Below are positions 16,252 to 43,166 of a DNA stretch of 64,000 bases, piece after piece (position 1 is the first letter of the stretch; the number at the start of each line of letters is the position of its first letter). The position numbers were made by a program, and so were the translations under genes. This DNA comes from Actinopolymorpha rutila (GTDB taxonomy: Bacteria > Actinomycetota > Actinomycetes > Propionibacteriales > Actinopolymorphaceae): positions 2,108,001 to 2,172,000 of the forward strand of contig NZ_JACBZH010000001.1 in assembly GCF_013407855.1 (NCBI RefSeq). The letters run 5' to 3'. Below the pieces are notes generated by a model. The model ran no database searches, was not told the origin of the DNA, and saw nothing but the letters and a program-made list of their open reading frames with translations.

Positions 16252-16304
16252 CCCACGCGGTCCGGCGTCCTTCGTAGCAACGAGAAGAGTTCCAGCAGCG
16301 ACGG

Positions 16305-16348
16305 CCGACGCACCGATCGATCCACGGTCGGTGCGTCGGTTTGCGTTG
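16305..16348 (+). terminator. Intrinsic terminator after serA
   Basis: Arms CCGACGCACCGA (16305-16316) and TCGGTGCGTCGG (16328-16339) are perfectly complementary over 12 bp, followed by TTTGCGTTGT. It lies 53 bp after the serA stop. Confidence 0.85.
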
Positions 16349-16449
16349 TCGTCGAATCCGTTTCCGAGGTGGTGTTCTGCCACCAATGATGAGTTCCGGC
16401 AGAACGAAACCCCAACGGGCCAAGGGCCCGGAAACGGAGACAGCTGCAG

Positions 16450-16953
16450 ATGCGCATGCCACGAAGGATCGCGGGACTCATCGCGGGGGCGAGTCTGGCG
16501 GCCGGAGCCGTGCTGGCCATGGGAGCACCGGCCCAGGCGTACTCCCCGAACCCGAGCACCACGGCGCACTACCGGAACACGACCTACTGCCCCTGCTCGA
16601 TCCCCGACGTCATCGACGGCACGTACTTCAAGTACGACCCTGGGGGCCGTGCGATCAAGATCGACATCTGGAATCCCAGCCACACCCGCTACCTCGGCAA
16701 GCTGGAGTTCCACCCGTACGGCGAGCAGGTGTGGCTGTACGACAACGCGAAGGACGGCGACAGCTTCTACTACCAGGTTCGCTACCGGCTCCCAGGGCAA
16801 CCCGAATACAACGGCCCTATTCTCGGGGGACTGCCCGGGGGTACGCACACCGTGAAGTCCTACCCGCTGCCTGAGGGGCAGGCCTTGACGATCTTCCTGT
16901 ACGACGACGCTGCGGGTCACGACTACATCGGCAACTGGTCCGGGATCGCCTGA
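16450..16953 (+). CDS. Secreted hypothetical protein
   Basis: Not recognised. The 167-residue product has a clear signal peptide (basic MRMPRR start, hydrophobic core, predicted cut after AQA at residue 30). The mature part begins YSPNPS, has a Cys-Pro-Cys motif (YCPCS) and is rich in Tyr, Gly, Asp and Pro, suggesting a small extracellular beta-rich protein. ATG 16450 is preceded by GGAGA. It stands alone between the serA terminator and its own GC-rich hairpin, so it is probably monocistronic. No function should be assumed. Confidence 0.8.
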   Translation: MRMPRRIAGLIAGASLAAGAVLAMGAPAQAYSPNPSTTAHYRNTTYCPCSIPDVIDGTYFKYDPGGRAIKIDIWNPSHTRYLGKLEFHPYGEQVWLYDNAKDGDSFYYQVRYRLPGQPEYNGPILGGLPGGTHTVKSYPLPEGQALTIFLYDDAAGHDYIGNWSGIA

Positions 16954-16981
16954 TCAGGGTCACGCGTCCAGCAGCACGACA

Positions 16982-17011
16982 GCGGCGGGTCGGCAACAGC
17001 CGGCCCGCCGC
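16982..17011. terminator. GC-rich hairpin between convergent genes
   Basis: Arms GCGGCGGGTCGGC (16982-16994) and GCCGGCCCGCCGC (16999-17011) pair over 13 positions with one G-T pair and an ACAA-type four-base loop. It lies between the secreted protein gene and the convergent ArsR-type gene and can serve both. No U tract. Confidence 0.65.
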
Positions 17012-17033
17012 AGTCCTGTCCGGCTGTCCTACG

Positions 17034-18035
17034 TCAAAAGGCCTTGTACGGAACGCCGTTCAGCATCGCGTCGCCCAGCGGAGTACGCCGGTGCAGCATC
17101 TCCCGCTGCTGTCGTTGCGACGTGAGCAGGCCCGCCTCGCGCAGCACGGTCGCGTGCCGGCTGGCGCTCGCCGGGGCCAGGTGCAGCTCGACCGCGATCC
17201 GGCCGGTCGACATGGGTACGTCGAGAAGGTCCAGTACCTGCGCGCGGGTGTGCCCGAGCAGCTGAGCCAGGGCGTCGAGAGTGCCGGAAGGGTCGATCGG
17301 GCGGTCCAGCCAGCCAGGAGCCGGCCGCAGCGGATGCACGAGCACCGGCGGCAGGTCCGGGTCGGCCAGGGTCACCGGCCGGCGGGCACAGAAGAACGAC
17401 GGGACGAGGCTCAGCGGGCGGCCGTTCAGGGCCAGCTCCTGGTCGACGGGGTACGCACACTCCAGCGCATCCTCGCGCCAGGCCAGCTCGTTCTGGTAGG
17501 TCTCCAGCAGACCCACGGCACCGCCGGTGAGCGCCGCCTCGGAACGGCTCGGGCGGTCGGCCGCCACCGCGGCGCGGATCGCGTGCAGGTACGGCGCGAC
17601 CGCGACGTCGTAGTAGCGCCGCAGTGACTCGCCCAGCCAGCGCAGGGCCGCCGGCTCCCCCTGGGCGAGCCGGCGGATCACAGGCGGCACGGGGCGCTGG
17701 GGAGCAAGCCGCGCGAGTTCCTGTCCCAGTCGACCTCTCGGCGTCGAGAGCACCGCGTCGAGCCCGTCGTCCAGGCTCGCGCAGCCGTTCTCCGGCGTGA
17801 GGAAGTCCGGGAAGTACTCCGCGTGCGGGCAGACGAGCATCAGCGCGCTCGTGGTGCACGCGAGGCCGCTGCGGGCCAGTGCGGTGCGCACCCGGCGGCG
17901 CCACGGGTCGAAGGTCAGTGCGGCGTGCCGGTTCTGCAACAGCTGCAGGCTCAGCACGGTCTCCCACAGCGGATGGACGTCGCCCGCCACCCGGAGCCGG
18001 TTGAGATCCTGCGTGGTGAACTCGATGCGGAGCAT
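17034..18035 (-). CDS. ArsR-type winged-helix transcriptional regulator with N-terminal DUF5937-like domain
   Basis: Predicted DNA-binding regulator of 333 residues. The C-terminal part (about 240-320) is a winged helix: LDALAQLLGHTRAQVLDLL, then STGRIAVELHLAPASASRHATVLREAGLL with the recognition helix, and a wing ending HRRTPLGDAML. The large N-terminal domain starts with LRIEFTTQDLNRLRV and resembles the domain in the second regulator at 23.9 kb, so the two are paralogues. No metal-binding Cys motif is apparent, so arsenic sensing is not implied. The ligand and targets are unknown. Confidence 0.82.
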   Translation of the reverse strand: MLRIEFTTQDLNRLRVAGDVHPLWETVLSLQLLQNRHAALTFDPWRRRVRTALARSGLACTTSALMLVCPHAEYFPDFLTPENGCASLDDGLDAVLSTPRGRLGQELARLAPQRPVPPVIRRLAQGEPAALRWLGESLRRYYDVAVAPYLHAIRAAVAADRPSRSEAALTGGAVGLLETYQNELAWREDALECAYPVDQELALNGRPLSLVPSFFCARRPVTLADPDLPPVLVHPLRPAPGWLDRPIDPSGTLDALAQLLGHTRAQVLDLLDVPMSTGRIAVELHLAPASASRHATVLREAGLLTSQRQQREMLHRRTPLGDAMLNGVPYKAF

Positions 18036-18276
18036 CTATCCCCCGATGTACTCCCGCTCACGTCGCCCGAACTCCGGGTGGTTCGTCCCTGAACACCCTT
18101 ATCGGGAGAGTACGCGCGCGCCGCCGGCCGGTCGGCTGATTTTCGCGGCGCCTGTGGATATCCGGTGAAGATCGGAAACCGAGGTCCGGACAGACGCAGC
18201 GGTCAGGACCGGCCGCGGCGCCTGGCCTCCGACGTGTCGGCGTGGCGCTGCGACCGGTCCGGGTCCGCGCGCCGCC

Positions 18277-18426
18277 ATGGTCAAGTCGCTCCGGAACTAC
18301 CTCAAGGACGTACGCGCCGCGCCGCGCGAACAGCTCTCGCTCTCCGGCTACTGGGCGTACGGCAGGACCGAGAACCGGTTCCAGGCCGAGAAGCGCGAAC
18401 CCGTCGGGCGGATCTCCCTGGACTAG
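18277..18426 (+). CDS. Small hypothetical protein (49 aa), possibly a remnant
   Basis: The frame starts at ATG 18277 and ends at TAG 18424-18426, giving a basic 49-residue product beginning MVKSLRNYLKDVRAAP and ending REPVGRISLD. Third positions are GC-rich, as in real genes, but no good ribosome site is visible. Its last 15 codons lie inside the first copy of an 88-bp tandem duplication, whose second copy repeats those codons in another frame. It is either a small gene or a remnant. I do not recognise it. The 241-bp gap before it (18036-18276) shows no other gene. Confidence 0.4.
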   Translation: MVKSLRNYLKDVRAAPREQLSLSGYWAYGRTENRFQAEKREPVGRISLD

Positions 18427-18554
18427 TGGAACGTGCGGGGCGCGGCGACGTCGCGGTCAGTTCCTGTTCCAGGCCGAGAAGCGCGAACCCGTCGGGCGGA
18501 TCTCCCTGGACTAGTGGAACGTGCGGGGCGCGGCGACGTCGCGGTCAGTTCCTG
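18379..18554. repeat. Perfect 88-bp tandem duplication
   Basis: Copy 1 (18379-18466) and copy 2 (18467-18554) are identical over 88 bp. Each carries the 3' coding end and stop of the small plus-strand ORF and the last 10 bp of the convergent methyltransferase gene, including its stop codon. The period is not a multiple of three. Full identity implies a recent event or an assembly artefact. Confidence 0.95.
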
Positions 18555-19111
18555 GTCGCGATCAGCACGCTGGCGTCGACGGCCACCATCACCTCGACGG
18601 TGGTGAAGCGCGGGTCGGTGAGCCACTGCTGCCGGGTGGTGTCGACCCGTCCCTGGTACATTGGCGGCCAGGTGGCGCAGGGCGTGAAGTCGTCGAGCAC
18701 GACCAGGCCGCCGGGCTCGACGAGTTCGGCCGCCAGATCGGGGCCGGCCCGCTTGGCCTCGCGTACGTCGAGGAACAGCAGAGTGAACGGCGCCCGTGCC
18801 GCGAGTTCCTTCCAGTCGGCCTCCAGGACGTCGACCGCCTCGTCGCCGGCGAACATCTCCCGGACCGCCTCGACCAGGCCGGAGTCGTGCTCGGCGGTGA
18901 CGAGCCGGGAGCCGGCGCGCATCCCGCTGCGCAGCCAGGCCGAGCCGACGCCGCAGCCGGTGCCCGACTCGGCGAGTGTGCCCTCGCGCGAGGCGGCCAG
19001 CGAGGCGAGCAGCCAGCCGGTCTCGTTGCGACAGGAGGACACGAAGCCGCGCCGGCGGGAGAGCTGGTGGGCGCGGGTGACCACCTCGGGGATCAGGGGC
19101 GGAGCACTCAT
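18545..19111 (-). CDS. Class I SAM-dependent methyltransferase (O-methyltransferase-like)
   Basis: The 188-residue product has the Rossmann methyltransferase layout: motif I region GTLAESGTGCGVGSAWL, an acidic end of strand 2 (LVTAEHDSG), FTLLFLDVREAKRAGPDL as motif IV, then VVLDDFTP. The arrangement resembles small O-methyltransferases of the COG4122 group. I chose ATG 19111; the open frame extends further upstream but crosses the promoter region of the divergent small gene. Its stop codon lies in the second copy of the 88-bp duplication. Substrate unknown. Confidence 0.78.
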   Translation of the reverse strand: MSAPPLIPEVVTRAHQLSRRRGFVSSCRNETGWLLASLAASREGTLAESGTGCGVGSAWLRSGMRAGSRLVTAEHDSGLVEAVREMFAGDEAVDVLEADWKELAARAPFTLLFLDVREAKRAGPDLAAELVEPGGLVVLDDFTPCATWPPMYQGRVDTTRQQWLTDPRFTTVEVMVAVDASVLIATRN

Positions 19112-42587: not shown

Positions 42588-43166
42588 GTGAACAAGTCCC
42601 AGCTGGTCGAGGTGCTCGCTTCGCGCTTCGACGACAACAAGAAGGATGCGCAGCACGCGCTCGAGTCCGTGATCGACACGATCACTCGTGCTGTTGCGTC
42701 CGGAGAAAAGGTGGCGATCACCGGCTTCGGCGCGTTCGAGAAGATCGACCGCCCGGCCCGGATGGTCCGCAACCCCCGCACGGGCGAGCGTAAGCGCGCC
42801 AAGAAGACGTCGGTGCCGAAGTTCCGCGCAGGTGCGGAGCTGAAGGCCGTCGTCTCCGGCGCCAAGAAGCTGCCGAAGCTCGCCGCGGCGAAGAAGACCA
42901 CGACGACCGGTCGCGCCGCCACGAAGACCGCCGCCACGAAGACCGCGGCGACCAAGACCGCAGCGAGCAAGGTCGCCGCCACCAAGGCGCCGGCCAAGAA
43001 GGCCGCGGCGAAGAAGACCACGACGACCGGTCGCGCCGCCACCAAGGCCACGACCGCCAAGAAGACCGCGGCCAAGAAGGCCACGGGCACGGCGGCCAAG
43101 AAGGCCACGGCCACGAAGAAGGCCACCACCAAGCGGACCCCGGCAAAGCGCACCGCCAAGCGCTGA
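42588..43166 (+). CDS. hupB: HU-family nucleoid protein with lysine/alanine-rich tail
   Basis: Actinobacterial HupB-type DNA-binding protein, 192 residues. Residues 1-93 are the HU fold (NKSQLVEVLASRFDDNKKDA, GEKVAITGFGAFEKIDRPAR, VRNPRTGERKRAKKTSVPKF). Residues 94-192 are a histone-like tail built of KKA, KTAA and TTTTGRAATK units. GTG 42588 has GGAGGG at 42577-42582. A 41-bp direct repeat in the tail (42882-42922 and 43002-43042) is in frame. Confidence 0.96.
   Translation: MNKSQLVEVLASRFDDNKKDAQHALESVIDTITRAVASGEKVAITGFGAFEKIDRPARMVRNPRTGERKRAKKTSVPKFRAGAELKAVVSGAKKLPKLAAAKKTTTTGRAATKTAATKTAATKTAASKVAATKAPAKKAAAKKTTTTGRAATKATTAKKTAAKKATGTAAKKATATKKATTKRTPAKRTAKR
42882..43042 (+). repeat. 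41-bp direct repeat within hupB tail
   Basis: Copies at 42882-42922 and 43002-43042 are identical and 120 bp apart, so in frame (40 codons). They encode the segment AAKKTTTTGRAAT. Confidence 0.9.

Follow-up and report, generated by a model that had tools for sequence, protein, structure and literature searches.

A possible break-repair scar with an exact 88-bp tandem duplication in a variable spacer of Actinopolymorpha rutila

Small spontaneous tandem duplications in bacterial intergenic DNA consist of identical adjacent copies whose ends share no long homology, and they break no gene. The 88-bp tandem duplication of the soil bacterium A. rutila described here is like them in these features, and differs from them by the putatively captured gene tails that adjoin it. 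Among the literature matches listed, and as far as their accessible text goes, none deals with small bacterial tandem copies of this type.

A second counterpart is provided by the NHEJ scars of S. ambofaciens. In the accessible part of that study (PMC5869714), inserts were present in three of the scars left where breaks had been induced in the central chromosome: two, of 42 and 83 bp, were of nearby origin, and the third, of 30 bp, stemmed from a distant transposase gene. Half of the scars used a microhomology of 1-6 nt. Mutagenic repair there largely needed KuA and LigC/LigD, with one clone from the kuA mutant and none from the ligCD mutant (PMC5869714). As far as the same part of the study goes, those scars and the present locus have in common short inserts that derive, putatively in the present case, from near or far, little or no homology, and the presence of Ku and ATP-dependent ligases in an actinomycete. 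They differ in that the S. ambofaciens breaks were induced with I-SceI, whereas the route here is read from sequence alone, and in that one donor, a siderophore-interacting protein (SIP) gene, was not found in the A. rutila genome.

A spacer that varies between species

The window, i.e. the whole 64-kb stretch of A. rutila DNA that was analysed, contains the following features around the duplication; G004 is one of seven family relatives (G001-G007) used for comparison.

17034..18035, minus strand: HTH (ArsR-like) protein gene, the left neighbour; all HTH models are below cut-offs
18166..18456, no strand: lineage-specific insert, following the shared CCTGTGGATATCCGG spacer and replacing 8 bp of G004; edges approximate
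18184..18251, minus strand: 3' end of a patatin-like phospholipase gene, copied together with its stop codon and part of the 3' flank
18273..18426, plus strand: 3' tail of a SIP gene (last codons and stop); the small ORF is 18277-18426
18379..18466, no strand: copy 1 of the 88-bp unit, made up of 48 bp of SIP tail, 30 bp of unassigned origin and 10 bp of methyltransferase gene end
18467..18554, no strand: second, identical copy of the 88-bp unit (copy 2)
18545..19111, minus strand: small methyltransferase gene, intact, with its last 10 bp in copy 2

The genes ilvC, serA, the methyltransferase gene and leuB occur together in all seven family relatives examined, two of which, A. pittospori DSM 45354 (G003) and A. 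alba DSM 45243 (G005), belong to the window's own genus, Actinopolymorpha. The methyltransferase is found at this place in each of the seven; its profile score (Methyltransf_24, 25.4 bits) narrowly misses the curated cut-off of 26.3. Gene content varies between species in the space from serA to the methyltransferase gene, 16252-18544 in the window. The left-hand genes of this space, 16450-16953 and the HTH gene, are common to A. rutila and G004 alone, and were not found at this place in the other six relatives examined (G001, G002, G003, G005, G006 and G007), in which the space measures 63-771 bp as cut from BLAST ends. By eye, the product of 16450-16953 is a small, secreted-looking protein.

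Between the start of the HTH gene and the stop of the methyltransferase gene, G004 has 114 bp and A. rutila 509 bp. The G004 spacer runs through the shared CCTGTGGATATCCGG, then 8 bp, to the methyltransferase end (its last letters are CCGG followed by 8 nt), and both the insert and the duplication are absent from it. Since G004 has the same gene order without either of them, both most simply arose after the split from G004.

Two gene ends within the insert

The duplication had been placed, in the sequence-only reading, at a convergent gene end. One member of the supposed gene pair proved otherwise: the methyltransferase gene is intact, but the small ORF is the truncated tail of a SIP gene (partial PF04954, 88% identity to A. 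pittospori), and the pair is therefore a gene facing a gene relic. The ORF represents the last 50 codons of the SIP gene, stop included (49 residues), and matches only positions 91-118 of the 119 of PF04954, with an E value of 0.00076 that is below the curated cut-off. The nucleotide identity of 88% extends over 154 bp, from 18273-18426 to C1:6600441-6600594 of A. pittospori, where the SIP gene is complete (PF04954 and PF08021) and where the ATG of the small ORF is an internal methionine codon. The 18 differences in 150 bases are distributed 5/4/9 over the three codon positions, a modest third-position excess. The likeness to the SIP family (PF08021/PF04954) is confined to the C-terminal end, which 18277-18426 encodes; the FAD-binding domain is lacking altogether, as is most of the SIP domain, and the 49-residue frame has neither the PF08021 nor the complete PF04954 that a SIP requires. 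To judge from its sequence, it is a relic and not a member of the SIP family in function.

No intact copy of this SIP gene was found in the A. rutila genome, where the search gave, besides the tail, one distant paralogue with 40% identity over residues 10-199. The SIP piece must thus be foreign, or be left from a gene that was later lost. Among eight family genomes, only A. pittospori has an intact SIP gene at this similarity, and at another place. The main alternative to a repair scar, possible but in our judgement less likely, is that a full SIP gene was acquired in the variable spacer and then mostly deleted, leaving the tail, and that the 88-bp copy is an unrelated later slip or unequal replication event. 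Such gene turnover would fit the differing content of the serA-methyltransferase space, the A. pittospori orthologue, and the SIP piece running in frame through to its stop codon, but no remnant of the upstream part of the SIP gene was recognised at the locus, and the adjacent patatin tail, coming from a different locus, needs an extra event.

This patatin copy is 68 bp long and lies 21 bp from the SIP tail; its supposed original, a gene which in full length carries PF01734 (profile search), is 2.6 Mb away. Positions 18199-18251 are 96% identical over 53 bp to the 3' end of that gene (A. rutila C1:4718620-4718672), and 18184-18251 matches the orthologues of G002 (90%) and G004 (86%), extending into the 3' flank. 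In an alignment of 49 bases, the window copy shares 47 with the A. rutila gene, 46 with G002 and 44 with each of G004 and G001, and past the stop its flank is closer to G002 and G004 than to the A. rutila gene. The copy may predate a change in the donor, or may come from an older or foreign version of the gene or from a related genome. The 2 differences in 49 bases, set against the identity of the tandem copies, and the foreign-like flank make at least two events of different age likely.

The length of the 3' flank of the patatin gene varies by species (L036:1960-2025, L039); A. rutila and G001 have extra GC-rich DNA just past the stop, and G002 and G004 do not. An 18-bp match beside the donor (E 5.87) might hint at a rearranged donor flank, and is too short to build on.

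The patatin and SIP pieces cover the insert except for about 70 bp (18166-18183, 18252-18272 and 18427-18456). The first 24 of the 30 bases after the SIP stop, with up to 3 mismatches allowed, were found in the A. rutila genome only as the two window copies, and the 30 bases 18421-18450 had no exact match in any viral contig searched.

The 88-bp tandem duplication

Direct comparison bore out the exactness of the duplication, 18379-18466 being identical to 18467-18554. In TRF it is the best-scoring array of the 64-kb window (18378-18554, period 88, 100% matches, no indels). The exact run at this period comprises 89 bases, which implies that 1 bp of microhomology is present at the tandem junction. 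Each of 20 order-3 Markov simulations of 64 kb gave, at periods of 20-500, a maximum exact run of between 13 and 20 bases, and a chance origin of the repeat is excluded. Slippage between the GTTCC words at 18378 and 18460 was considered and rejected, as the resulting period would be 82 instead of 88.

The claims that the period is not divisible by three, and that the tandem duplication leaves both frames intact at the convergent end, were also correct. The stop of the small frame (18424-18426) is kept within copy 1, and that of the methyltransferase gene (18545-18547, minus strand), together with its last two codons and one base, within copy 2. Both frames survive because the unit spans both gene ends, each frame ending in the copy nearest its own body; any tandem copy across two gene ends retains both stop codons automatically. 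The identity of the copies had further been taken to imply a very recent origin, which is too strong: 0 differences in 88 allow up to 3.3% divergence (95% upper bound), and the copies could also have stayed alike through exchange with each other. Judged by its absence from G004, the duplication is younger than the split from that genome, whose BLAST pieces have 95% identity on the methyltransferase side and 89% on the HTH side.

Repeats of this size were sought outside the window in 60 stretches of 20 kb, i.e. 1.2 Mb of the 6.95-Mb genome (53 spread along the chromosome, 6 adjoining the window and 1 over the patatin donor), the window itself having been picked because it contains such a repeat. 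Among perfect tandem repeats with two full copies at periods 20-2999, none in the 1.2 Mb sampled exceeded a unit length of 42 bp, the nearest being one 42-bp array and arrays of period 20-30; a perfect tandem copy of this kind is rare in this sample. An assembly or sequencing artefact, with a second copy that does not exist, would account for the perfect identity, and for the 1.26 Mb scanned showing no further perfect tandem copy of a unit longer than 42 bp. We consider it improbable, as the genome is one contig of 6,952,820 bases and 176 bp is short enough for ordinary reads to span.

The 42-bp array (L143:12086-12247, near 2.08 Mb of the A. rutila genome) is perfect and comprises almost four copies of a unit that includes the GC-rich inverted repeat GCCCGCAGGCTCCCTGCGGGC and is terminator-like by eye. 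Within the window, a further array at 42882-43118 (periods 15-120 in the TRF listing) is perhaps, again by eye, the lysine/alanine-rich tail of a DNA-binding protein. A comparison of the window and the 60 stretches for ectopic short copies of at least 90% identity gave 27 pairs, 22 of them 40-400 bp long: 9 of a stretch with its own reverse complement, the tandem copy, the patatin copy (its donor stretch had been included deliberately) and 11 others.

It is very improbable that the unit is a functional element, such as a mobile repeat or bidirectional terminator, whose doubling serves a purpose. Its location at a convergent end and a predicted fold of two hairpins with outer edges near the unit ends would suit such a role, but the unit folds no better than shuffles (z of 0.20 and 0.18 for the two strands, and of -0.59 and -0.75 for the 40-bp right part). 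No site of the intrinsic terminator type (stable GC hairpin and T tract) was present within the unit, the one terminator-like site of the region, 18123-18136, being outside it. A functional structure in the unit was rejected on these two grounds. A mobile repeat was not supported either, since no other full copy of the unit was found in the A. rutila genome or in 390 other genomes of the order. This search, of 391 genomes drawn evenly from a larger group and including A. rutila, was a permissive initial screen that scored 2 candidates per genome; 28 of the 391, A. rutila included, gave any match to the unit at E 0.001 or better, and A. pittospori carries its first 48 bases, which are the SIP end. 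No function is indicated for the unit, which is probably ordinary and functionless.

Proposed origin and meaning

On balance, we think it probable that this content-variable stretch carries a lineage-specific scar of illegitimate (NHEJ-like) double-strand-break repair, formed in one Actinopolymorpha lineage. In the repair route that we infer, the chromosome would first have broken between the HTH and methyltransferase genes, and the repair of this break would have captured two short fragments, the 3' ends of the patatin-like gene and of the SIP gene. Either during this event or afterwards, local end joining or template switching would have produced the adjacent second copy of the 88-bp stretch at the right edge, using 1 bp of microhomology. 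With both gene ends inside the unit, neither frame would have been harmed, and the duplication would persist as neutral DNA.

The presence of two neighbouring pieces from unrelated genes at different loci (patatin and SIP) argues for such a repair scar. An NHEJ-type capture scar further calls for Ku and ATP-dependent ligase, and the A. rutila genome has both, with 2 Ku matches and 6 ATP-dependent DNA-ligase domain matches, all over the cut-off; these are eight places on C1 of one genome. It also calls for a junction homology of none or a few bases, and the 1 bp found is a figure for the tandem junction alone, the other scar edges not being placeable to the base. Against the scar reading, the repair route leaves no unique mark, the SIP donor was not found in the A. 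rutila genome, the patatin copy departs from its supposed source, and the two pieces leave about 70 bp of the insert unaccounted for. A more specific scheme would make the spacer a record of successive captures of gene 3' tails, those of patatin and SIP (each reaching its stop) followed by the unit with the methyltransferase tail, with repair or transcription-coupled breakage at convergent ends in this lineage preferentially copying other gene ends; we regard it as far-fetched.

The locus is an ordinary, rare, lineage-specific rearrangement scar. It shows that a "small gene" can be a mere captured gene tail, and it offers a natural example of patchwork DNA like the laboratory break-repair scars of actinomycetes, with little importance beyond this.
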